From: Pagrus major | Lineage: Eukaryota; Chordata; Actinopteri; Spariformes; Sparidae | Direction of reading: 5' to 3' | NCBI RefSeq assembly: GCF_040436345.1 | Contig: NC_133237.1 | Coordinates: 25,053,749-25,117,748 of the forward strand | Length of the DNA stretch: 64,000 nucleotides | Shown: one piece after another, positions 14,116-53,754 of the stretch | How the letters are laid out: each line of letters starts with the position of its first letter | How positions within the stretch are numbered: position 1 is the stretch's first letter | Position numbers and translations under genes: made by a program | The notes under the pieces: generated by a model | Database searches by the model: none | Seen by the model: only the letters and a program-made list of their open reading frames with translations | What the model was told of the DNA's origin: nothing

Positions 14116-14682
14116 TTACTCTTGTGTTCCCCTCTGAAATACTGACACGATTTTGCAAATCATCAGCACTGGGCTGCCTTCCAACTCCTCCAGATCACCC
14201 TGAGGATTCACCACAGTCATTGCAAGAGCCTCACACCCCTCTTTAGACTTTCTAATGTACTCCATCAGGGCCTGATACGGAGCTTGTGGCTGCAGCCCTG
14301 CACTCCTGGTGTTGAACTCAATGTTGGGTTCTGGTGGTAATATCAAAGCCTTGCAGGGTCCAAAGTTGTGTTCCCTCTCTCCATCACTGTAGGTGTTGTA
14401 GAGGTACTGGTTAATCTCCTCTTTGAAGCGTTCCAGGTGGCCATGTGTTCTCTGTGAACTCAGGGGGATGTGATGAATGATGACTGTCACTTGTTTCCTT
14501 GCTCTCTTTATGCTCCTCCTTCTGTGTGAACCTGCTTGAGCTTCTTCCTCACATTGTTTTAGAGATTTGCTCAGGTGGACTTTTCCTCCTCCCTCGCTCT
14601 CTTGCAGCCCCTTTATTAACTGGCAGAGTCTCGTTTCCTGTCTGATCTGAAAACTGACATTAACTGGATCTTCTGATCTGAT
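14116..14682 (-). other. Uncharacterised coding-like fragment, - strand
   Basis: A reading frame on the - strand stays open for about 188 codons before its stop at 14116-14118, far longer than chance allows in this AT-rich spacer. The only in-frame Met near the front is internal (14488-14490). The product would be hydrophilic, with a basic patch (HRRRSIKRARKQ), then VIIHHIPLSSQRTHGHLERF and ALILPPEPNIEFNTRSAGLQ, and an acidic end. A splice acceptor-like CAG lies at its upstream limit, so it may be one exon or a displaced piece of a gene. I do not recognise a family. It has no counterpart in the other V-V spacers, so it arrived by a separate insertion between V7 and V8. Confidence 0.4.
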
Positions 14683-16881: not shown

Positions 16882-17210
16882 GCTCCAGCCTCCCTCCTCC
16901 TGTCCTGACAGTCTTCCCTCCGTCCAGAGCTGAGCTCCAGTCCAGCGAAGCCTCTCTGGTCTGTCTGTCCAGTCAGTCTGTGCCTTTTGCAGATGTGAGC
17001 TGGTTTGCTGCTGGGAGTCCAGTGAGCAGTGGGATCTCTACCAGCACCGCTGTTCAGCAACCGGACCACACTTTCCAAATCAGCAGCTATCTGGCCATCC
17101 AGACGTCAGACTGGAACATGGAGAAGGTTTACACATGTAAAGTGTCTTTGGGCTCCCAGACTGCAGAGAAACACATCAAGAAGTCAGACTGTCCCACTGA
17201 AGAACAGTAG
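16882..17210 (+). CDS. IgL constant region C3
   Basis: A 109-residue C1-set domain with the canonical Cys pair, Trp 41 and terminal SDCPTEEQ. Its combination of variants is SSEASL, GSPVSSG and HIKKSD, a mosaic of those in C1, C2 and C5. AATAAA sites follow within 190 bp. The J3-C3 intron is collinear with the other clusters. Confidence 0.95.
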
Positions 17211-18544: not shown

Positions 18545-20300
18545 AGATGGTCTGTTGTAATGCAGCTTTATTCAGCAGGATAGTTTTCACTATCAAGCAA
18601 TTTTACATTTTTCAACATCAATTGGTGCTGTGACTAAAATCACTACATCTCAAAGGCTTCATGTTTACTCATCCAATTATTTCTTGCTTTGCAAAGCACA
18701 AAGATATAGCTCAAACTATATCTTCAAAATCAAGAACAGACTCAGTCTTGATAGTATCGAATCAATTTATCTTCGGCCACTTCATCTTGGGATCTTTCCC
18801 CACTGTTTGCATAACAAGACAGAGAAGGGAGAACAAAAGAGAGGAATCAGTTAGTTAAATTATCAACAGAGGTCGATCAACAGAAAAATATTTTAATAAT
18901 TGAATAATTCTGCAATAATTTTTGGAGCAAAACTTGACAAAAATTCACTGATTCTAGCTTCTGAAATGTGTCGACTTGCTTCTTTACCCTTTTGTCTGTT
19001 TGAAATCAGCAGAAATATTCAGTAATATGTACCGTCTGCAGCGTTTCACTAAAGGGACAAAAAGCAGAAAATAAGATGAATAAACATCAGAATATCATTA
19101 TCATATTTGAAAATCTTTGGATTTAAAACATTAATGATGCTGTCTTTACTTAGTTTTATGTTTATTATCTGAGGTACCAGGACTAAATAACAGATTTTAG
19201 CTAAACACAGAACTAAGTGAAGTTGTATGTAGTAAGTTAGTACAGTCAAGTGTGATTTGTTGATCACAGACTAAAGGAGCCTGATGTTTGTGTAAATCAG
19301 AGGTCAATCTGTTAATATCAACTCAGTATGTATGAAAGCTTGTGACTTACTGCAATTGTCCCGCACAAAGCCTGCAGGCTTTCTATACCAAGTTAGAGAA
19401 GGGGGAAAGAGAGAGGAATCAGTTAGTCAAATTATCAACAGAGGTCGATCAACAGAATCTTAAATGACAAATATTCTAATAATTTAATGATTTTGTAATC
19501 ATTTTTGGAGCAAAAACTGACAAAAATTCACTGATTCCAGCTTCTGAAATGTGTCGGCTTGCTTCTTTACCCTCTATTATATTACCGTGAATTTAAATGG
19601 GTTGGACAAACTAAGGTACTTGAAGACATCAACTTGGAAACTGGTTAATATTGATGCTTGCTGTGTTTGATAGGTTTGAGGCATTTCACAAAGTCTTTTT
19701 ATTTCTTTTATTTGTCTGTTTGAAATCAACAGAAAATATTCAGCATTACTTACCTCATGCATCTGGACCCTAAAGGGACAAAAAGCAGAAAATGCGATAA
19801 ATAAACATTAGTATATTATTATCACATTTAAAAATCTTTGCATTTAGAACATTAATGATGCTCTCTTTACTTAGTTTTAGGTTTATTATCTGAGGTGCCA
19901 GGACTAAATAACAGATTTTAGCTAAACACATAAATAAGTGAACTTGTATGTAGTAAGTTAGTACAGTCAAGTGTGTTTTGTTGATCACAGACTAAAAGGA
20001 GCCTGCTGTTTGTGTAAAACAGAGGTCAGTCTGTTAACATCAACTCAGTATGTATGAAAGCTTGTGACTTACTGCATCGTCGCGGAGGGACCAAACCTCC
20101 CGGACGTGGTCGCTGACTCTCCCCGGGTTCAGCCATGAGGACGACCAGCGTCAACACCAGAAAGATCATAACACACTTCATCCTGAGGAACAAATCACAG
20201 TGGCCACATCCAGAATAATTCACTGCTCGTTTGTCAGAACCAAAAAAAAACTGGTGTCACAGACAGCAAAGTGAGCACTGTGAGATCTAGAGGTGATGTG
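18545..20300 (-). CDS. Piscidin-signal cysteine-hairpin peptide gene, copy A
   Basis: Predicted small secreted peptide gene, 77 residues. Coding exons on the - strand: 20073-20182 (ATG at 20181-20179), 19754-19769 (16 nt), 19351-19382 (32 nt), 19033-19048 (16 nt) and 18742-18802 (stop TGA). Every junction is GT/AG and the frame stays open across all of them. The signal peptide (MKCVMIFLVLTLVVLM + AEPGES) closely matches piscidin-family antimicrobial peptides. The mature part begins QRPRPGGLVPPRRC and is strongly cationic (many Arg), with Cys as CRSRC-X11-CMKRC, that is CX3C-X11-CX3C. It ends in an acidic SQDEVAEDKLIRYYQD tail, perhaps a prodomain. A poly(A) signal AATAAA lies at 18567-18572 (- strand). 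The TATA position reads CATAAAG (20328-20333), and the 5' intron seen in copies B and C is missing, so expression is uncertain. Function (antimicrobial) is inferred from the signal peptide and charge. Confidence 0.68.
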
Positions 20301-20483: not shown

Positions 20484-21084
20484 ACATTAAGGTAGTTCAT
20501 TTAAATTGGTAGAAGATTTTGGGAGGATAGGAAAAGGGGGGTCAGGGTTGTTGGATGAAGGAAGGGGGGTTCGAGGTTGGTGGATGAAGGAAAGGAGGTT
20601 TGAGTAGCGCTGCGGATTGGCTGGACCGTCTAGGAACCATGGAGGTTGAGACTCAGAATGGGGGTACGTCTCGATGGGCGCACGTCTTGGTTGGTGTGGC
20701 TTCATTGTCCCCCCTGTGGTTCCTGTGCTGGAATGGCCTGGGTAACCGGTTCTGGAGGATCTTCTTGCCGTGGGATGGCGATGTCGAAGGCTGGGCTGTT
20801 GGTGATCCTGTGAGGGAGGATAGTGGAGAAGGAGAGGGCCTGGGGGGGAGGGTTGTAAGAACTTGAGACGAACGGGAGAGAAATGGTCAGGCTTGCATAT
20901 ATAGATTTTGCAAGTGATTGAATCAGGGTGACGTAGGTGGTTGGGTTAATGCTGCACAGGTGGTTAGGTTGACGAGACGCAGGTGGTTGGATTGATGAGA
21001 TGCAGGTGGTTTGACTGGCTGGGCCTGGGTGGCAGATCAGCGAGGAGGCGTGGCGTGGTCCAGTTCCTGAACCTTAGTTATAAC
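20484..21084. repeat. G-rich interspersed element of unknown class, copy A
   Basis: One strand is strongly G-rich, with GGTGGTT-type near-repeats in its second half (20930-21020), unlike the AT-rich surroundings. The same element occupies the matching place in blocks B (36818-37374) and C (50072-50668), about 150 bp upstream of the peptide-gene TATA box. No terminal repeats or coding capacity could be settled. A retroelement remnant is possible. Confidence 0.45.
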
Positions 21085-21914
21085 AACTCCATATCATAAA
21101 AATGCGTTGATATGTTGTTGAAAACACAAACAATTATGCTGAATGCATTAAATCTGCATTTTAATTATATTTTGGTACATTTTTAAAATAGTTTTGTTAT
21201 TTTCAATGACATTATCAGCATATAGATTAATTTGATATCATTTTTTATGTATACTTATATTTTTAATATAAAATAAATACCCTCTGGACAGAAAATGTGC
21301 ATGTTTTGTGTTTGACCTCACATGTTTCTAATGACAATGCTTGATGTTTCCTAAGACAGGAAGTGATTTATCAGTTTTATCAGCAACTGAAGAACAAACA
21401 CGGTATTTCAGAACTCAAGGGGAACAAAAGTCAACTTCCTCTTTGTAAAGTTAAGAAATATACAGTATATAAGTTATTAAGCTTCTTGATTGTATGAATT
21501 AGATGATTTCTTTGCTCATTTTACATTTTAATAGCTTGAATGTCTTTGTCTCTTTTGGAAAAGGCCAACAGCACGAATGCCATTTACACAGTGATCATCT
21601 TGGCTCTTATAAAATTGTTATTTTGACTGTTTTTCTGATGTTTTATAGACCAAATGATTAATCTATTGATGGAGGAAATGCCATACTTGAATCATTTCCA
21701 AAGTGCTGCTTTACCAGACACACAAGTACAGTCAGAAACAGAAAGAAATAGGAAGACTGTTCATTTAATGAACTGATCACACCAACACACATTATTTAGA
21801 TCTACTTAATTTAAACATTTACCTCTGACTTAATAAAAAACAATGTTCTTGATCATCATCACCAATAAATTTACAAGCATGTTCACTTAAATAACACCAC
21901 AAAACAAAGATGGT
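21085..21914. other. Spacer, block A
   Basis: AT-rich, no gene seen. It holds a stretch (about 21240-21430, with GGAAGTGATTTATCAG) that recurs at about 22650-22780 and 23380-23520, showing old local duplication. Collinear in blocks B and C. Confidence 0.6.
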
Positions 21915-22640
21915 CTTTTGTAATGCAGCTTTATTCAGCAGGATAGTTTTCACTATCAAGCAATTTTACATTTTTCAACATCAATTGGAGCTGTGACTAA
22001 AATCACTACATCTCAAAGGCGTCATGTTTACTCATCCAATTATTTCTTGCTTTGCAAAGCACAAAGATATAGTTCAAACTATATCTTCAAAATCAAGAAC
22101 AGACTCTTTCAACAGTTTGCATAACAAGATAGAGAAGGGGGAACAAAAGAGGGAAATCAGTTAGTTAAACTATCAACAGAGGTCAATCAACAGAATCTTA
22201 AATGACAAATATTTTAATAATTTAATAATTTTGCAATCATTTTTGGAGCAAAAACTGACAAAAAATCACTGACTCCAGCTTCTGAAATGTGTCGACTTGC
22301 TTCTTTACCCTCTATTATATCATCGGGAATTTAAATGGGTTGGACAAAATAAAGTACTTGAAAACATCAACTTGGGATCTGGTTAATACTGATGCTTTCT
22401 ATGTTTGATAGGTTTGAGGCATTTCACAAGTCTTTTTATTTCTTTTTTATTTGTCTGTTTGAAATCAACAGAAAATATTCAGTAATACTTACGGTGGAAA
22501 TTGAGGTCCTAAAGGGACAAAAAGATGAAAATTAGATAAATAAACATTAGTATACTATTATAACATTCGAAAATATTTGCATTTAGAACATTAATGACGC
22601 TCTCTTTACTTAGTTTGGGTTTATAAGCTGAGATGCCAGG
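21915..22640 (-). pseudogene. Truncated fossil copy of the cysteine-hairpin peptide gene (A2)
   Basis: This resembles the 3' half of the neighbouring peptide gene: a - strand AATAAA in the same context, the same intron sequence, and one 16-nt exon-like piece with GT/AG borders (22493-22508) that encodes no Cys. No signal exon or final coding exon is recognisable. It is a decayed tandem duplicate, also present in blocks B and C, so it predates block duplication. Confidence 0.6.
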
Positions 22641-24238
22641 ACAGAAAATGTACTTTTTTTTGGTTTGAGCCTCACACGTTTGTAATGACAATGCTTGATG
22701 TTTCCAAGACAGGAAGTGATTTATCATTTTTATCAGCAAAAGAAGAACAAGGTATTTCAAAACTCAGGTAAAGAAAAGGTCAACTTTCTCTTTGTTAAGT
22801 TAGAAGAAATATACAGTATATAAGTTTATTGTTAAGTCTTGTAACATAACAGTACATTTTGAAATTAAATATAAGCTAGAGACCATCTTGCAATGGCAGG
22901 CCCGTAAACATGTTCATATATATATATACACACACATTACACTGATCCGCAACTTAAAATGTGAAAAAGTTAATCACCAACGATGACTTTTGCGGTTTTC
23001 TATTTCATAAATTCCACAACCTCACACTATTATAAAGTGGCCAGTTGTGTCATCTAATGTAATGGTAGCACTGCAGCAGCAGTAAACAGATTTAAAGGTC
23101 TTATTTGTAAGAAAAGTGGATTTTTGAGTCTCATTCTCAACTTCTCAAATACTGACGCTGGGATTGTAGGTCGAGTTGGCCGCCATCCCAAAGTGTCAGT
23201 ATTTGATGAGTTGGGAATGAGACTCGAAAAAAACTTTTCTTACAAATAGGACCTTTAAATATTATGATAAAACATATATTCATACTGCTAAAGCTCCTCC
23301 ATCATTTGATGGTTCCAGCTTCTCAAATGTAGCTAATTTACATATAATTTTTATGTATACTTATACTTTTAACATAAAACAAATACTCTCTGGACAGAAA
23401 ATGTACTTTTTGTGTTTGAGCCTCATGTGTTTGTAATGACAATGCTTGATGTTTCCTAAGAAAGGAAGTGATTTATCAGTTTTATCAGCAAAAGAAGAAC
23501 AAACAAGGCATTTCATAACAAATGATGCTATCGTGTTGGCAAAGTCTGCCCACAGACGGACAGACAGACGGACAGACACACATGTTGAAAACAATAACTG
23601 CTGTACTTGAGCAGACAGGGATGACTGGAACTGGGTTACACTGACCTGCAACTTCAAATGTGAAACAATCATTCACCAACAATGACTTTTTGGGATTGTA
23701 GGTCGGGTTGGCCGCCATCCAAAAGTGTCAGTATTTGAAGAGTTGGGAATGAGATTAAAAAATCTACTTTACTTACAAATAGGACCTTTAATAATAATGA
23801 TAAAAAAAATGAAATCTTACTGCTTATACTTGTCCCAACATTTGATGCTTCCAGCCTCTCAAATGTAGGGATTTGCTAATTTGTTTTCTCCTTGAATGTC
23901 TTTGGCTGTTGGACTGTTGGCCGTATCCAAAAGAGACATTTACACAATGATCATCTTGTTTCTTATGAAATTGTTATTTTGACTGTTTTGATGTTGTTTG
24001 ATGTTGTTTCTGATGCTTTATAGACCAAATGATTCATCTATTGATGGAGGAAATGCCAGAATTTAATCATTTCCAAAGTGCTGCTTTACCAGAGACACAA
24101 GTACATTCAGAAACAGAAAGAAATAGGAAGTGTTCATTTAATAAACTGATCACACCAACACACACATTATTTAGATCTACCCAATATAAACATTTACCTC
24201 TGACTTAATAAAAAACAATGTTCTTGATCATCATCACT
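22641..24238. other. Repeat-rich spacer, block A
   Basis: No gene seen. It includes AT/AC microsatellite at 22917-22936, the fold-back element at 23091-23259 (separate entry), a single arm of the same family at about 23690-23795, and a duplicated GGAAGTGATTTATCAG region. Block B has lost most of this stretch; block C keeps it (52161-53754). Confidence 0.6.
23091..23259. mobile_element. Fold-back MITE-like element (169 bp)
   Basis: The ends are TTTAAAGGTC and GACCTTTAAA, and the arms pair over almost the whole length (TATTTGTAAGAAAAG with CTTTTCTTACAAATA; AAATACTGACGCT with a matching GTGTCAGTATTT). A single long hairpin like this is typical of a non-autonomous DNA transposon. A second full copy lies at 52620-52788, and single arms at about 1438-1555, 7985-8100, 23690-23795 and 53210-53315. 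Confidence 0.7.
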
Positions 24239-33118: not shown

Positions 33119-33447
33119 GCTCCAGCCTCCCTCCTCCTGTCCTGACAGTCTTCCCTCCGTCCAGAGCTGAGCTCCAGTCCAACGAAGCCTCTCTGGTCTG
33201 TCTGTCCAGTCAGTCTGTGCCTTTTGCAGACGTGAGCTGGTTTGCTGCTGGGAGTCAAGTGAGCAGTGGGATCTCTACCAGCACCGCTGTTCAGCAACCG
33301 GACCACACTTTCCAAATCAGCAGCTATCTGGCCATCCAGACGTCAGACTGGAACATGGAGAAGGTTTACACATGTAAAATGTCTTTGGGCTCCCAGACTG
33401 CAGAGAAACACATCAACAAGTCAGACTGTCCCACTGAAGAACAGTAG
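33119..33447 (+). CDS. IgL constant region C4
   Basis: A 109-residue C1-set domain with all landmark residues. It reads SNEASL, GSQVSSG and HINKSD and has a private change in strand F (YTCKMSLG, Met for Val). AATAAA signals follow. The J4-C4 intron is about 0.77 kb and collinear with the other clusters. Confidence 0.95.
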
Positions 33448-34759: not shown

Positions 34760-36612
34760 TGGTCTTTTGTAATGCAGCTTTATTCAGCAGGATAGTTTTC
34801 ACTATCAAGCAATTTTACATTTTTCAACATCAATTGGAGCTGTGACTAAAATCACTACATCTCAAAGGCTTCATGTTTACTCATCCAATTATTTCTTGCT
34901 TTGTAAAGCACAAAGATACAGCTCAAACTATATCTTCAAAATCAAGAACAGACTCAGTCTTGATAGTATCGCCTCAATTTATCTTCGGCCACTTCATCTT
35001 GGGATGTTCCCCCCCTGTTTGGATAACAAGTTAGAGAAGGGGGAAAGAGAGAGGAATCAGTTAGTTAAATTATCAACAGAGGTCGATCAACAGAATCTTA
35101 AATGACAAATATTTCAATAATAATAATAATGATAATAAATTAAATAAAACAAAAATCTGACAGAAATTCACTGATTGTTTGATAGGTTTGAGGCATTTCA
35201 CAAAGTCTTTTTATTTCTTTTTTATTTGTCTGTTTGAAATCAACAGAAAATATTCAGTAATACTTACAATTTGTCGCAGTCACTCCCTAAAGGGACAAAA
35301 AGCAGAAAATAAGATAAATAAAAATTAGTATATTATTATCATATTTGAAAATCTTTGCATTTAGAACATTAATGATGCTGTCTTTACTTAGTTTTATGTT
35401 TATTATCTGAGGTGCCAGGACTAAATAACAGATTTTAGCTAAACACAGAACTAAGTGAAGTTGTATGTAGTAAGTTAGTACAGTCAAGTGTGATTTGTTG
35501 ATCACAGACTAAAGGAGCCTGCTGTTTGTGTAAATCAGAGGTCAATCTGTTAACATCAACTCAGTATGTGTGAAAGTTTGTGACTTACTGCATCGCCACC
35601 GCAAAGAGCTAAGTGGTAGTCTATACCAAGTTAGAGAAGGGGGAAAGAGAGAGGAATCAGTTAGTCAAATTATCAATAGAGGTCGATCAACAGAATCTTA
35701 AATGACAAATATTCTAATATATTAATAAGTATGTAATAATTTTTGGAGCAAAACTGACAAAGATTCATTGATTCCAGCTTCTGAAATGTATCGACTTGCT
35801 TCTTTACCCGCTATTATATCACCGTGAATTTAAATGGGTTGGACAAAATAAGTTACTTGAAGACATCAACTTGGAAACTAGTTAATACTGATGCTTTCTG
35901 TGTTTGATAGGTTTGAGGCATTTCACAAAGTCTTTTTATTTCTTTTATTTGTCTGTTTGAAATCAACAGAAAATATTTAGCATTACTTACTTCGCGCAAT
36001 CGGACCCTAAAGGGACAAAAAGCAGAAAATAAGATAAATAAACATTAGTATATTATTATCACATTTGAAAATCTTTGGATTTAAAACATTAATGATGCTC
36101 TCTTTACTTAGTTTTATGTTTATTATCTGAGGTACCAGGACTAAATAACAGATTTTAGCTAAACACAGAACTAAGTGAAGTTGTATGTAGTAAGTTAGTA
36201 CAGTCAAGTGTGATTTGTTGATCACAGACTAAAGGAGCCTGCTGTTTGTGTAAAACAGAGGTCAGTCTGTTAACATCAACTCAGTATGTATGAAAGCTTG
36301 TGACTTACTGCATTGGGACCAACTCTGACTCTCCCCGGGTTCAGTCATGAGGACGACCAGTGTCAACACCAGAAAGATCATAACACACTTCATCCTGAGG
36401 AACAAATCACAGTGGCCACATCCAGAATCATTCACTGCCTTCACTCACCAGTGTCAAAGCTCATCACAACCCATCTAAAAGACTTTGCATTTATTAAAGT
36501 AACATCAGGATTAAATTGACTTCTCACCTTTCCACAGCTTGTTTGTCAGAACCAAAAAAAACTGGTGTCACAGACAGCAAAGTGAGCACTGTGAGATCTA
36601 GAGGTGATGTGG
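34760..36612 (-). CDS. Piscidin-signal cysteine-hairpin peptide gene, copy B
   Basis: Predicted 70-residue secreted peptide. A non-coding first exon ends at 36528 (AAAG|GTGAGA donor) and begins near 36612, about 25 nt after a TATAAA box (36638-36643). Coding exons: 36309-36394 (ATG 36393-36391), 35991-36006 (16 nt), 35589-35620 (32 nt), 35268-35286 (19 nt) and 34954-35014 (stop TGA). All junctions are GT/AG and the frame is open throughout. The signal is MKCVMIFLVLTLVVLM + TEPGES. The mature part starts QSWSQ and carries CRSDC-X11-CRSDC, so both halves hold the same RSD triplet. It is less cationic than copy A. The tail is SQDEVAEDKLRRYYQD. AATAAA lies at 34779-34784 (- strand). With promoter, introns, signal, stop and poly(A) signal all present, this is the best-preserved copy. 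Confidence 0.7.
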
Positions 36613-36817
36613 TGAGCAGTCGTGAGTTACCCGTCTCTTTATAAGGATGGAGATGGAGTAAACTCATCCAGTCATTCTGTATTTCTCAATGTGTTTTGCA
36701 ATTCACTTTTTTTTCACTGACTGTGATGATGATTAAAGATGAAAACATATATCACATAGTGCAATTTTTTTTCTTTTACAATTTCACTAACGAGACCACG
36801 GCACATTTTAACATTAA

Positions 36818-37374
36818 GGTAGTTCATTTAAATTGGTAGAAGATTTTGGGAGGATAGGAAAAGGGGGGTCACGGTTGTTGGATGAAGGAAAGGAGGTGTG
36901 AGTAGGGCTGCGGATTGACTGGACCGTCTAGGAACCAGGGAGGTTGAGACTCAGAATGGGGGTACGTCTCGATGGGCGCACGTCTTGGTTGGCGTGGCTT
37001 CATTGTCCCCCCTGTGGTTCCTGTGCTGGAATGGCCTGGGTTCTGGAGGATCTTCTTGCCGTGGGATGGCAATGTCGAAGGCTGGGCTGTTGGTGATCCT
37101 GTGAGGGAGGATAGTGGAGAAGGAGAGGGCCTGGGGGGGAGGGTTGTAAGAAGTTGAGACGAACGGTAGAGAAATGGTCAGGCTTGCATATATAGATTTT
37201 GCAAGTGATTGAATCAGGGTGACGTAGGTGGTTGGGTTAATGCTGCACAGGTGGTTAGGTTGACGAGACGCAGGTGGTTGGATTGATGAGACGCAGGTGG
37301 TTTGATTGGCTGGGCCTGGGTGGCAGATCAGCGAGGAGGCGTGGCGTGGTCCAGTTCCTGAACCTTAGTTATAA
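36818..37374. repeat. G-rich interspersed element, copy B
   Basis: Counterpart of 20484-21084, slightly shorter, again just upstream of the peptide-gene promoter. Confidence 0.45.
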
Positions 37375-38206: not shown

Positions 38207-38920
38207 AAAGATGGTCTTTTGTAATGCAGCTTTATTCAGCAGGATAGTTTTCACTATCAAGCAATTTTACATTTTTCAACATCAATTGGAGCTGTGACTA
38301 AAATCACTACATCTCAAAGGCTTCATGTTTACTCATCCAATTATTTCTTGCTGTGCAAAGCACAAAGATATAGCTCAAACTATATCTTCAAAATCAAGAA
38401 CAGACTCTTTCAACAGTTTGCATAACAAGATAGAGAAGGGGGAACAAAAGAGAGGAATCAGTTAGTTAAACTATCAACAGAGGTCGATCAACAGAATCTT
38501 AAATGACAAATATTTTAATAATTTAATAATTTTGCAATAATTTTTGGAGCAAAAACTGACCAAAAATCACTGACTCCAGCTTCTGAAATGTGTTGACTTG
38601 CTCTTTTACCCTCTATTGTGTCAAGAATTTAAATGGGTTGGACAAAATAAAGTACTTGAAAACATCAGCTTGGGATCTGGTTAATACTGATGCTTGCTAT
38701 GTTTGATAGGTTTGGGGCATCTTTTCATTTCTTTTTTATTTGTCTGTTTGAAATCAATAGAAAATATTCAGTAATACTTACGGTGGAGATTGAGGTCCTA
38801 AAGGGACAAAAAGATGAAAATTAGATAAATAAACATTAGTATACTATTATAACATTCGAAAATATTTGCATTTAGAACATTAATGACGCTCTCTTTACTT
38901 AGTTTGGGTTTATAAGCTGA
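38207..38920 (-). pseudogene. Truncated fossil copy of the cysteine-hairpin peptide gene (B2)
   Basis: Same make-up as A2: a - strand poly(A) context, intron sequence and one 16-nt exon-like piece (38782-38797); no signal exon. Confidence 0.6.
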
Positions 38921-39721
38921 GATGCCAGGACAGAAAATGTACTTTTTTTTTGTTTGAGCCTCACATGTTTGGAATGACAATGCTTGATGTTTCCTAAGAC
39001 AGGAAGTGATTCATCATTTTTATCAGCAAAAGAAGAACAAGGTATTTCAAAACTCAGGTAAAGAAAAGGTCAACTTCCTCTTTGTTAAGTTAGAAGAAAT
39101 ATACAGTATATAAGTTTATTGTTAAGTCTTGTAACATAACAGTACATTTTGAAATTAAATATAAGCTAGAGACCATCTTGCAATGGCAGGCCCGTAAACA
39201 TGTTCACGTTCTGATCCATGACTACTCAGTAGTGATTACTACATTGTCACAGGAGTACTCATCACTCACACGGTTGTGATGCTATCGTGTTGGCAATGTC
39301 TGCCCACAGACAGACAGAAAGACATACAGACACAGACCACATTGTCCCTGTCCAGTGAAAACCACTAATATAAAAAAATGGCAATTTTTCATGAGCCAAG
39401 AAAAACAGATATGTTTTCAGCATTTGTCAGATGATTCGATGGCTTTCCAAATCATTTGTTTGGCTTAAGAAATAGGAGAATTGTTTCTTCTCATAAAAGG
39501 AACAGTTCCTTCATTTTTATCGAAAAATTCAAAAACACCAAATTTGCAATTAAGTGGTTTTCACTGGACGTTAATTAAAAGAGTAGACACAACATTAATT
39601 GAGAACTCCCCCTGGTTCTGTTCTAAACTTGTCAATTTATGTATTAATGACAAAAAAAACCAAAAACAGTACTGTTATACCAGTATGCATACATAAAATA
39701 GCTTATTGAATCGAAATATAA

Positions 39722-46368: not shown

Positions 46369-46697
46369 GCTCCAGCCTCCCTCCTCCTGTCCTGACAGTC
46401 TTCCCTCCGTCCAGAGCTGAGCTCCAGTCCAGCGAAGCCTCTCTGGTCTGTCTGTCCAGTCAGTCTGTGCCTTTTGCAGATGTGAGCTGGTTTGCTGCTG
46501 GGAGTCAAGTGAGCAGTGGGATCTCTACCAGCACCGCTGTTCAGCAACCGGACCACACTTTCCAAATCAGCAGCTATCTGGCCATCCAGACGTCAGACTG
46601 GAACATGGAAAAGGTTTACAAATGTAAAGTGTCTTTGGGCTCCCAGATCGCAGAGAAACACATCAACAAGTCAGACTGTCCCACTGAAGAACAGTAG
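46369..46697 (+). CDS. IgL constant region C5
   Basis: A 109-residue C1-set domain. Landmark Cys and Trp are kept. Private changes are YKCKV (Lys for Thr before the second Cys) and SQIAEKH (Ile for Thr). SSEASL, GSQVSSG, HINKSD. Poly(A) signals as in the other clusters. Confidence 0.95.
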
Positions 46698-48019: not shown

Positions 48020-49867
48020 TGGTCTTTTGTAATGCAGTTTTATTCAGCAGGATAGTTTTCACTATCAAGCAATTTTACATTTTTCAACATCAATTGGAGC
48101 TGTGACTAAAATCACTACATCTCAAAGGCTTCATGTTTACTCATCCAATTATTTCTTGCTTTGTAAAGCACAAAGATACAGCTCAAACTATATCTTCAAA
48201 ATCAAGAACAGACTCAGTCTTGATAGTATCGCCTCAATTTATCTTCGGCCACTTCATCTTGGGATGTTCCCCCCCTGTTTGGATAACAAGTTAGAGAAGG
48301 GGGAAAGAGAGAGGAATCAGTTAGTCAAATCAACAGAGGTCGATCAACAGAATCTTAAATGACAAATATTTCAATAATAATAATAATGATAATAAATTAA
48401 ATAAAACAAAAATCTGACAGAAATTCACTGATTGTTTGATAGGTTTGAGGCATTTCACAAAGTCTTTTTATTTCTTTTTTATTTGTCTGTTTGAAATCAA
48501 CAGAAAATATTCAGCATTACTTACGTCATGCATCTGGACACTAAAGGGGCAAAAAGCAGAAAATAAGATAAATAAAAATTAGTATATTATTATCATATTT
48601 GAAAATCTTTGCATTTAGAACATTAATGATGCTGTCTTTACTTAGTTTTATGTTTATTATCTGAGGTGCCAGGACTAAATAACAGATTTTAGCTAAACAC
48701 AGAACTAAGTGAAGTTGTATGTAGTAAGTTAGTACAGTCAAGTGTGATTTGTTGATCACAGACTAAAGGAGCCTGCTGTTTGTGTAAATCAGAGGTCAAT
48801 CTGTTAACATCAACTCAGTATGTGTGAAAGTTTGTGACTTACTGCATAGCCACCGCAAAGAGCTAAGTGGTTGTCTATACCAAGTTAGAGAAGGGGGAAA
48901 GAGAGAGGAATCAGTTAGTCAAATTATCAATAGAGGTCGATCAACAGAATCTTAAATGACAAATATTCTAATATATTAATAAGTATGTAATAATTTTTGG
49001 AGCAAAACTGACAAAGATTCATTGATTCCAGCTTCTGAAATGTATCTACTTGCTTCTTTACCCGCTATTATATCACCGTGAATTTAAATGGGTTGGGCAA
49101 AATAAGGTACTTGAAGACATCAACTTGGAAACTAGTTAATACTGATGCTTTCTGTGTTTGATAGGTTTGAGGCATTTCACAAAGTCTTTTTATTTCTTTT
49201 ATTTGTCTGTTTGAAATCAACAGAAAATATTTAGCATTACTTACTTCGCGCAATCGGACCCTAAAGGGACAAAAAGCAGAAAATAAGATAAATAAACATT
49301 AGTATATTATTATCACATTTGAAAATCTTTGGATTGAAAACATTAATGATGCTCTCTTTACTTAGTTTTATGTTTATTATCTGAGGTGCCAGGACTAAAT
49401 AACAGATTTTAGCTAAACACAGAACTAAGTGAAGTTGTATGTAGTAAGTTAGTACAGTCAAGTGTGATTTGTTGATCACAGACTACAGTAGCCTGCTGTT
49501 TGTGTAAATCAGAGGTCCATCTGTTAACATCAACTCAGTATGTATGAAAGCTTGTGACTTACTGCATTGGGACCAACTCTGACTCTCCCCGGGTTCAGTC
49601 ATGAGGACGACCAGTGTCAACACCAGAAAGATCATAACACACTTCATCCTGAGGAACAAATCACAGTGGCCACATCCAGAATCATTCACTGCCTTCACTC
49701 ACCAGTGTCAAAGCTCATCACAACCCATCTAAAAGACTTTGCATTTATTAAAGTAACATCAGGATTAAATTGACTTCTCACCTTTCCACAGCTTGTTTGT
49801 CAGAACCAAAAAAAACTGGTGTCACAGACAGCAAAGTGAGCACTGTGAGATCTAGAGGTGATGTGGT
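48020..49867 (-). CDS. Piscidin-signal cysteine-hairpin peptide gene, copy C
   Basis: Predicted 69-residue secreted peptide. A non-coding first exon ends at 49782 (GTGAGA donor), with a TATAAA box at 49892-49897. Coding exons: 49563-49648 (ATG 49647-49645), 49245-49260 (16 nt), 48843-48874 (32 nt), 48525-48540 (16 nt) and 48214-48274 (stop TGA). The frame is open across all GT/AG junctions. The first half matches copy B (signal, QSWSQ, CRSDC). The second hairpin arm is CMSRC, and its exon 48525-48540 is nearly the same as the first micro-exon of copy A (19754-19769), not copy B's. CX3C-X11-CX3C is kept. The tail is SQDEVAEDKLRRYYQD. AATAAA at 48039-48044 (- strand). Confidence 0.7.
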
Positions 49868-50071: not shown

Positions 50072-50668
50072 AAGGTAGTTCATTTAAATTGGTAGAAGAT
50101 TTTGGGAGGATAGGAAAAGGGGGGTCAGGGTTGTTGGATGAAGGAAGGGGGGGTTCGAGGTTGTTGGATGAAGGAAAGGAGGTGTGAGTAGGGCTGCGGA
50201 TTGACTGGACCGTCTAGGAACCAGGGAGGTTGAGACTCAGAATGGGGGTACGTCTCGATGGGCGCACGTCTTGGTTGGCGTGGCTTCATTGTCCCCCCTG
50301 TGGTTCCTGTGCTGGAATGGCCTTGGTAACCGGTTCTGGAGGATCTTCTTGCCGTGGGATGGCGATGTCGAAGGCTGGGCTGTTGGTGATCCTGGGAGGG
50401 AGGATAGTGGAGAAGGAGAGGGCCTGGGGGGGAGGGTTGTAAGAACTTGAGACGAACGGTAGAGAAATGGTCAGGCTTGCAAATATAGATTTTGCAAGTG
50501 ATTGAATCAGGGTGACGTAGGTGGTTGGGTTAATGCTGCACAGGTGGTTAGGTTGACGAGACGCAGGTGGTTGGATTGATGAGATGCAGGTGGTTTGATT
50601 GGCTGGGCCTGGGTGGCAGATCAGCGAGGAGGCGTGGCGTGGTCCAGTTCCTGAACCTTAGTTATAAC
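50072..50668. repeat. G-rich interspersed element, copy C
   Basis: Counterpart of 20484-21084 and 36818-37374, at the same distance upstream of the peptide-gene promoter. Confidence 0.45.
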
Positions 50669-51499: not shown

Positions 51500-52160
51500 A
51501 GATGGTCTTTTGTAATGCAGCTTTATTCAGCAGGATAGTTTTCACTATCAAGCAATTTTACATTTTTCAACATCAATTGGAGCTGTGACTAAAATCACAA
51601 CATCTCAAAGGCTTCATGTTTACTCATCCAATTATTTCTTGCTTTGCAAAGCACAAAGATATAGTTCAAACTATATCTTCAAAATCAAGAACAGACTCTT
51701 TCAACAGTTTGCATAACAAGATAGAGAAGGGGGAACAAAAGAGGGAAATCAGTTAGTTAAACTATCAACAGAGGTCAATCAACAGAATCTTAAATGACAA
51801 ATATTTTAATAATTTAATAATTTTGCAATCATTTTTGGAGCAAAAACTGACAAAAAATCACTGACTCCAGCTTCTGAAAGATTCTTGAAAACATCAACTT
51901 GGGATCTGGTTAATACTGATGCTTTCTATGTTTGATAGGTTTGAGGCATTTCACAAGTCTTTTTATTTCTTTTTTATTTGTCTGTTTGAAATCAACAGAA
52001 AATATTCAGTAATACTTACGGTGGAAATTGAGGTCCTAAAGGGACAAAAAGATGAAAATTAGATAAATAAACATTAGTATACTATTATAACATTCGAAAA
52101 TATTTGCATTTAGAACATTAATGACGCTCTCTTTACTTAGTTTGGGTTTATAAGCTGAGA
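51500..52160 (-). pseudogene. Truncated fossil copy of the cysteine-hairpin peptide gene (C2)
   Basis: Same as A2 and B2, with the 16-nt exon-like piece at 52020-52035 and a poly(A) context near 51520. Confidence 0.6.
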
Positions 52161-53754
52161 TGCCAGGACAGAAAATGTACTTTTTTTTTGTTTGAGCCTC
52201 ACATGTTTGTAATGACAATGCTTGATGTTTCCAAGACAGGAAGTGATTTATCATTTTTATCAGCAAAAGAAGAACAAGGTATTTCAAAACTCAGGTAAAG
52301 AAAAGGTCAACTTCCTCTTTGTTAAGTTAGAAGAAATATACAGTATATAAGTTTATTGTTAAGTCTTGTAACATAACAGTACATTTTGAAATTAAATATA
52401 AGCTAGAGACCATCTTGCAAAGGCAGGCCCGTAAACATGTTCATATATATATATACACACACACATTACACTGATCCGCAACTTAAAATGTGAAAAAGTT
52501 AATCACCAACAATGACTTTTGCGGTTTTCTATTTCATAAATTCCACAACCTCACACTATTATAAAGTGGCCAGTTGTGTCATCTAATGTAATGGTAGCAC
52601 TGCAGCAGCAGTAAACAGATTTAAAGGTCTTATTTGTAAGAAAAGTAGATTTTTGAGTCTCATTCTCAACTTGTCAAATACTGACGCTGGGATTGTAGGT
52701 CGAGTTGGCCGCCATCCCAAAGTGTCAGTATTTGATGAGTTGGGAATGAGACTCGAAAAAAACTTTTCTTACAAATAGGACCTTTAAATATTATGATAAA
52801 ACATATATTCATACTGCTAAAGCTCCTCCATCATTTGTTGGTTCCAGCTTCTCAAATGTAGCTAATTTACATATAATTTTTATGTATACTTATACTTTTA
52901 ACATAAAACAAATACCCTCTGGACAGAAAATGTACTTTTTGTGTTTGAGCCTCATGTGTTTGTAATGACAATGCTTGATGTTTCCTAAGAAAGGAAGTGA
53001 TTTATCAGTTTTATCAGCAAAAGAAGAACAAACAAGGCATTTCATAACAAATGATGGTATCGTGTTGGCAAAGTCTGCCCACAGACAGACAGACAGACAT
53101 GTTGAAAACAATAACTGCTGTACTTGAGCAGACAGGGATGACTGGAACTGGGTTACACTGACCTGCAACTTCAAATGTGAAACAATCATTCACCAACAAT
53201 GACTTTTTGGGATTGTAGGTCGGGTTGGCCGCCATCCAAAAGTGTCAGTATTTGAAGAGTTGGGAATGAGATTAAAAAATCTACTTTACTTACAAATAGG
53301 ACCTTTAATAATAATGATTAAAAAAATGAAATCTTACTGCTTATACTTGTCCCAACATTTGATGCTTCCAGCCTCTCAAATGTAGGGATTTGCTAATTTG
53401 TTTTCTCCTTGAATGTCTTTGGCTGTTGGACTGTTGGCCGTATCCAAAAGAGACATTTACACAATGATCATCTTGTTTCTTATGAAATTGTTATTTTGAC
53501 TGTTTTGATGTTGTTTGATGTTGTTTCTGATGCTTTATAGACCAAATGATTCATCTATTGATGGAGGAAATGCCAGAATTTAATCATTTCCAAAGTGCTG
53601 CTTTACCAGAGACACAAGTACATTCAGAAACAGAAAGAAATAGGAAGAGTGTTCATTTAATGAACTGATCACACCAACACACACATTATTTAGACCTACT
53701 CAATATAAACAAATACTTCTGACTTAATAAAAAACAATGTTCTTGATCAACATC
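52161..53754. other. Repeat-rich spacer, block C
   Basis: Collinear with 22641-24238. It contains the fold-back element 52620-52788 and a single arm of that family near 53210-53315. No gene seen. Confidence 0.6.
52620..52788. mobile_element. Fold-back MITE-like element, block C copy
   Basis: Second full copy of the hairpin described at 23091-23259. Same site, so inherited with the block and not a new insertion. Confidence 0.7.

Follow-up and report, generated by a model that had tools for sequence, protein, structure and literature searches.

Three genes (A, B, and C) on the minus strand of the window, a 64-kb stretch of contig C23 of the Pagrus major genome (786 Mb in 25 contigs), carry a piscidin-type leader, and their mature-peptide micro-exons probably encode a cysteine-stapled helical hairpin, not a linear helix. 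Exon-by-exon splice reading gave each gene one open frame across five coding exons, with AG/GT at all internal boundaries and fitting phases. The predicted proteins are MKC...GESQRPRPGGLVPPRRCRSRCMRKPAGFVRDNCMKRCRRGERSQDEVAEDKLIRYYQD for A, ...SQSWSQCRSDCAKLPLSSLRWRCRSDCDKLGGTSQDEVAEDKLRRYYQD for B, and ...SQSWSQCRSDCAKQPLSSLRWLCMSRCMTGGTSQDEVAEDKLRRYYQD for C. In window positions, the features of gene B and the coding exons of the other two are:

36638-36643, minus strand: TATAAA of gene B, just upstream of its 5'UTR exon (direct reading)
34760..36612, minus strand: gene B, whole (sequence read directly; transcript ends predicted)
~36612-36528, minus strand: gene B 5'UTR exon (direct reading; ends predicted)
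36309..36393, minus strand: gene B exon 2, with signal peptide, start of the mature peptide, and Cys1 (splice model and Pfam scan)
35991..36006, minus strand: gene B exon 3 (16 nt, b exon), with Cys2 (splice model)
35589..35620, minus strand: gene B exon 4 (32 nt, a exon), with the loop and Cys3 (splice model)
35268..35286, minus strand: gene B exon 5 (19 nt, b exon), with Cys4 (splice model)
34954..35014, minus strand: gene B exon 6, with the C-terminal tail and stop (splice model)
34779-34784, minus strand: gene B polyadenylation signal AATAAA (direct reading)
20073-20181, 19754-19769, 19351-19382, 19033-19048, and 18742-18802 (18742..20181), minus strand: gene A coding exons, intron 1 lost
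49563-49647, 49245-49260, 48843-48874, 48525-48540, and 48214-48274 (48214..49647), minus strand: gene C coding exons (splice model)

The signal exon ends in phase 1, b exons (16 or 19 nt) pass from phase 1 to 2, and a exons (32 nt) from phase 2 to 1; in A, B, and C, b and a micro-exons alternate between the signal exon and the tail exon, which comes last. Identity is 98.3% between B and C (1,854 aligned bases) and 89.9% between B and A (1,717), and AATAAA lies downstream of each of the three. We identified three further genes on C23, all upstream of the window, namely G (ATG at 25015137), F (25026282), and E (25032270), and splice phases were consistent across all six. A TATAAAG box stands 249-250 bases upstream of the ATG in five of these six genes; the exception is A, which has CATAAAG in place of the TATAAAG of B and has lost the intron-1 donor. 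Gene G encodes one hairpin, and E and F encode four CX3C units each, that is, two tandem hairpins. These read C-KFS-C-X11-C-FDG-C-X12-C-RSR-C-X11-C-WRN-C-N in E, where a premature stop just past the last cysteine leaves no tail, and C-RDK-C-X10-C-WSE-C-X11-C-KAK-C-X11-C-RSN-C in F, where the tail is retained. One a exon of F has its acceptor 3 nt downstream of the usual place, giving X10 and removing Pro9.

A sequence-only reading of the window had proposed one open GT/AG-bounded frame per copy, C-X3-C-X11-C-X3-C spacing in A, B, and C, a piscidin-type leader, and a shared acidic tail. The frames, the spacing (3/3), and the leader (above the PF08107 cut-off in 3/3) were borne out; the tail is shared, but its acidity is only mild (net charge -2 or -3). 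That reading had also spoken of an undescribed peptide family, a claim that relatives lacking the frame or the cysteines would refute. The four-cysteine mature region recurs in E, F, and G of the same genome with no such loss, though E stops early; for three genes, "family" was nevertheless too strong a word.

Several other open frames were noted. Proline-rich frames lie upstream of each gene copy (window 20487-20945, 36869-37364, and 50125-50657, minus strand), and a Pfam scan of one of the three (20487-20945) gave no match. A 188-residue frame (window 14116-14682, minus strand), occurring once among the listed frames of at least 75 aa, likewise had no Pfam match. An intron of gene F holds a repeat insertion (C23 25020700-25024300; L023 and L024) with a reverse-transcriptase-like frame discerned by eye.

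The leader matches the Pleurocidin family (PF08107) on residues 1-22, with E-values of 2.5e-9 (B), 2.3e-9 (C), and 4e-10 (A) and scores of 37.2, 37.3, and 39.7 bits (cut-off 22), covering only positions 1-22 of the 42 in the profile. Pfam matches to Tsg (Twisted-gastrulation, E 0.21) and DIM (E 0.21) fell below the cut-off and were taken as noise. The C23 genes share with piscidins, pleurocidins, and moronecidins a signal peptide, a 5'UTR exon 1, a start codon one base into exon 2, a tiny exon 3, and a C-terminal exon. In sea-bass piscidin genes, the 5'UTR exon extends to the first base of exon 2, which holds the signal, and exon 3 measures 19 bp in four of six genes and 19-49 across species, followed by the C-terminal exon (PMC7369796); in the C23 genes, exon 3 is 16 nt and lies below that range. 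Tandem clusters and a mature part that evolves faster than the signal are further shared traits (PMC7369796, PMC2830478).

The mature region departs from this plan. Piscidins usually have four exons and three introns, with three- and five-exon exceptions known (PMC7369796), whereas extra micro-exon pairs bring the predicted count to six exons in B, C, and G, five in A, and ten in E and F. Piscidins are cysteine-free according to PMC8468504 and section 5 of PMC10215159, the introduction of which calls them rich in arginine and cysteine; instead of a cysteine-free linear amphipathic helix, the C23 genes encode four cysteines (A, B, C, and G) or eight (E and F). Their C-terminal piece is conserved, whereas cod piscidins show high diversity in the pro domain as well (PMC2830478). 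Judged by leader and build, A, B, and C are piscidin genes, with a mature part that is not that of a classical piscidin.

The six genes yield eight hairpins, all with the four cysteines; the inter-pair loop is X11 in seven and X10 in one. Seven of the eight have Pro9, all have Gly or Ser two residues further on, at position 11, and most positions other than these and the cysteines are variable. The pattern C1-C5-C17-C21 is symmetrical about position 11. Mainly because the Pro9-Gly/Ser11 turn sits at this centre, we infer a two-helix hairpin fold. Mean helix propensities of the arms outside the turn (0.34-0.53 against a non-proline average of 0.48) speak neither for nor against helix. At E up to 10, comparison with solved structures gave no match for protein A or for a profile of the eight hairpins.

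Instead, these piscidin-family genes could encode secreted cysteine peptides that form no two-helix hairpin, their cysteines paired otherwise, for example as interchain dimers, or binding metal. The cysteine pattern alone is no predictor of structure (PMC7191063), and a single-unit relative on C18 with C-X3-C-X3-C has three cysteines, from which no closed hairpin is possible. We regard this as unlikely, since an x-Pro-x-Gly/Ser turn ends at the symmetry centre of the four cysteines in seven of eight hairpins and the unit count of E and F, four, is even, which two hairpins require.

Divergence between the genes is concentrated in the micro-exons. The 16 b exons had a mean pairwise difference of 0.446 per site, versus 0.055 in the upstream and 0.084 in the downstream introns, with the exon above its flanks in 119 of 120 pairs; the 10 a exons had 0.439 per site versus 0.087 and 0.021 in their flanking introns (exon above in 45/45 pairs). 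The signal and tail (0.042 and 0.040 differences per site) were conserved. Since the b and a exon pairs are not independent, we compared three disjoint gene pairs, with introns of >900 nt excluded and with Fisher p values that take sites as independent. Micro-exons differed at 13/64 sites versus 7/922 intron sites in B-C (~27-fold, p = 5.8e-12), 24/64 versus 41/526 in A-G (~5-fold, p = 1.6e-9), and 52/157 versus 65/1992 in E-F (~10-fold, p = 2.3e-31). The B-C contrast comes close to a single exchange event, because exon 5 holds 11 of the 13 differences, exon 4 two, and exon 3 is identical.

Nei-Gojobori estimates for the seven X11 hairpins, cysteine codons removed, were pN 0.490 and pS 0.238, compared with pN 0.027 and pS 0.095 for the signal. 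Hairpin pS (0.24) lies well above intron divergence, which makes dN/dS crude here and points to block exchange besides selected point mutations. The last micro-exon of C resembles first-unit exons of A and G, and the introns around it match B, bar a few bases just downstream. Each CX3C unit reads as a pair of micro-exons, phase-neutral and copied inside its gene.

Interspersed with the genes are five relics that lack a signal exon, two of them upstream of the window and three within it:

21911..22642, minus strand: relic D1, a 3' fragment with no signal exon, a broken last acceptor, and a cysteine-free b exon
38212..38931, minus strand: relic D2, a signal-less 3' fragment like D1, with a cysteine-free b exon
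51503..52169, minus strand: relic D3, a signal-less 3' fragment like D1, with a cysteine-free b exon

Among the relics, the 16-nt exon differs by 0.0875 per site, compared with 0.012 and 0.023 for its two flanks, with three of 10 variable columns inside the exon. This exon divergence is five-fold below that of live exons, and drawing five live exons at random 2,000 times never gave a value as low. In matched live sets (A, B, C, E, and G), the first b exon reached 0.306 against flanks of 0.050 and 0.028, and the last b exon 0.450 against 0.052 and 0.166. The relics are no clean neutral control, because their exon/flank ratio is about as high as that of the live genes.

These relics, whose exons too vary above their flanks, would suit a locus of decaying tandem piscidin pseudogenes with micro-exons that drift and are never translated, as would the premature stop of E and the lost intron 1 of A. 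We consider this very improbable. Drift alone is insufficient for the exon excess in the disjoint pairs, and signal and tail vary less than flanking DNA. All 32 cysteine codons are TGC, and every exon holds its AG/GT ends and phase amid highly variable neighbours. Retention of TGC merely for splicing was considered and rejected: Cys1 and Cys3 end exons, where splicing may play a part, but Cys2 and Cys4 lie mid-exon, and exon 2 of a relative on C22 (L014) ends in TGTG, not TGC.

A genome-wide search for the b-exon signature CCCTTTAG-N8-TGC-N5..8-GTAAG found 16 places in 786 Mb, 14 of them belonging to the six C23 genes and the other two to inverted copies on C18, whereas the reversed control had no matches genome-wide. 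This strict signature misses two of the 16 C23 b exons, one in E (acceptor tract differs) and one in A (donor differs). A slightly looser version, run over 154 kb of C23, recovered 16 places on the minus strand, namely the 16 expected exons, and none on the plus strand. The loose pattern ATGAAGTGC alone was uninformative (8,805 matches), and TGCN-GTAAGTCACAA was too loose for counting (41 matches versus 10 in the control). Given this signature with its empty control, together with the exon/intron contrast, a chance reading can be rejected.

The leader itself is more widespread. Searching the genome with protein B gave at least 61 places, at least 45 of them matching from residue 1 (the signal): six on C23, 34 in two clusters on C22, two on C15, two on C21, and one on C18, the weakest at E of about 1 to 4, with part of the matches inspected. 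A search with the unit DNA gave at least 69 matches on C23, C22, C18, and C21 (40 of 86 first-look candidates scored). Set against the 16 places of the TGC signature, this suggests that the exon-pair unit is common in the superfamily and the CX3C form is not. The C23 genes are one branch of a leader-sharing piscidin superfamily.

Other payloads were mostly read by eye from the fetched part of the leader matches. Classical-looking mature starts, GFFGWLIKGAIHG and GFIGLLISGAISG, occur on C22 at 12.228 and 12.233 Mb. A large piscidin-leader array occupies C22 13.87-14.08 Mb (L014, L015, L018, L020, and L041-L048), with mature parts that are Gly/Ser-rich, single-loop, multi-unit C-X6-C, or Pro-rich, and with CCTCCA-type repeat runs within some micro-exons. 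L014 and L045 encode a single small cysteine loop (CVLGGVRFGC and CVLGGSRFC), and L015, L018, and L020 a Gly/Ser-rich two-cysteine part, given a GC donor at the end of exon 2. Several units with C-X6-C were read in L041 and L042, C-X6-C units with no signal exon in the stretch examined in L043, and L044 adds one more multi-unit locus. Some of the copies on C22 seem to be broken, because the exon-3 acceptor is apparently lost in L046 and L048 and L047 has no signal exon. On C18 (8820291-8834313), an inverted pair with CX3C micro-exons includes a plus-strand gene, ...FPSRCKFECMRKCGGTGTSQDEVAEDKLRRYYQA by eye, whose three cysteines (C-X3-C-X3-C) possibly represent a single-unit form.

Under the hairpin reading, each C23 gene would be transcribed from its own promoter, and the signal would be removed after about residue 22, a length taken from piscidin papers. 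Cys1-Cys4 and Cys2-Cys3 bonds would then form in the secretory pathway around the x-Pro-x-Gly/Ser turn, the two disulfides closing a short two-helix hairpin, and the mildly acidic tail would act as the piscidin pro-region. The hairpin core, with a predicted net charge of +12 in A, +9 in G, +7 in E, +6 in F, and +3 in B and C, would be a secreted host-defence effector that acts outside the cell on microbes or parasites, its exposed residues under diversifying selection. Unequal exchange of the phase-neutral pair may give rise to both one- and two-hairpin precursors. The a-exon acceptor resembles the tail-exon acceptor of single-unit relatives and the a-exon donor resembles the exon-2 donor. A single unequal exchange that takes in the end of exon 2, exon 3, and intron 3 could therefore add such a pair. 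Going by sequence likeness, one added pair would mean one CX3C unit more and hence one hairpin, and three added pairs two hairpins. The earlier interpretation as a secreted host-defence peptide is partly supported, by the piscidin leader, the gene plan, and a four-cysteine region kept under strong diversification; its hairpin payload and host-defence role stand as predictions.

Like the C23 genes, plant alpha-hairpinins combine a signal, one or several hairpins with CX3C-X4..20-CX3C, and a short C-terminal piece (PMC7191063, PMC11591084). This piece spans 19 residues in the chickweed precursor (PMC7191063), and modular plant precursors hold up to 12 modules (PMC7191063, PMC11591084). All eight C23 hairpins show the motif. 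The definition in PMC11591084 also restricts alpha-hairpinins to peptides of no other protein family, and the PF08107 match conflicts with this rule, so we file the C23 genes as alpha-hairpinin-like and not as members. They differ further in being fish piscidin genes with introns, with no kinship found among solved structures, and if the fold is right, the likeness is convergent. Scorpion kappa-hefutoxins and the cone-snail peptides flf14/vil14 have the same cysteine motif, with a reported Cys1-Cys4 and Cys2-Cys3 pairing, but they are described as potassium-channel blockers of invertebrate venoms (PMC7191063), and we claim no kinship with them. A process termed ASSET radically alters short exon sequences from one paralogue to the next in the three-finger toxin genes of snake venom (PMC2711939, PMC2474615); these belong to another gene family, and in the C23 genes the unit is a whole micro-exon or exon pair.

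If translated, these genes would have one vertebrate leader and gene frame carry unrelated payloads (linear helix, single loop, stapled hairpin, and double hairpin) in a venom-like manner, and would give vertebrates a hairpin scaffold described in plants, scorpions, and cone snails. Contrasts between exon and intron as sharp as these allow direct measurement of diversifying selection on a putative host-defence peptide. In the literature searched, often the top of longer results and with subscription journals and database annotation outside its scope, no title or abstract start concerned cysteine-hairpin piscidins or piscidins within a light-chain locus.

Sequence matches mark the plus strand of the window (1-64000) as an immunoglobulin light-chain locus in which V and C exons recur. 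The V ends carry 12-base-spacer recombination signals: each of 15 inspected V-exon ends is followed by CACAGTG, and 13 of them by the nonamer ACAAAAACC after a 12-base spacer. One V exon and one constant exon were scanned, matching Pfam V-set and C1-set, respectively; among known structures, the constant exon matches antibody chains, light chains included. Eight constant exons lie at C23 25.044-25.116 Mb, six of them inside the window, including:

16884..17207, plus strand: immunoglobulin light-chain constant exon adjoining gene A (Pfam and structure match)
33121-33444, plus strand: matching constant exon by gene B
46371-46694, plus strand: matching constant exon by gene C

Genes A, B, and C lie about 1.3 kb beyond these three constant exons, antisense between light-chain cassettes, and E, F, and G just outside the cassettes. 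Among 73 constant-exon matches genome-wide, none fell on C22 or C18, the home of other relatives. Hitch-hiking on segment duplication would explain the location of A-C, and joint regulation with the light-chain locus is possible.

The hairpins, if secreted, could instead have a main job other than microbe killing, such as inhibiting proteases, binding ion channels or receptors, or immune signalling, perhaps B-cell-linked. We hold this unlikely. Some other CX3C-Xn-CX3C hairpins inhibit trypsin, the cores of B and C are only +3, and A, B, and C stand between light-chain cassettes, all of which favour such a job. Some hairpins of this type also block potassium channels (PMC7191063). The piscidin leader and gene family and the +12 and +9 cores of A and G argue against it; for the B-cell link in particular, co-location may be plain hitch-hiking on segment duplication, and E, F, and G lie outside the cassettes.

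Beyond the stapled-hairpin reading, a wider proposal is doubtful, namely that the piscidin locus diversifies peptides in the germline. Phase-neutral micro-exon pairs would be duplicated, exchanged, and changed under selection into one- and two-module stapled hairpins, as a vertebrate counterpart to the modular alpha-hairpinin precursors of plants, the array being partly embedded in, amplified with, and possibly expressed with the immunoglobulin light-chain locus. With A, B, and C placed inside that locus, one can test whether innate and adaptive arrays are linked. Four further, similar constant exons form a second group at C23 17.26-17.28 Mb.
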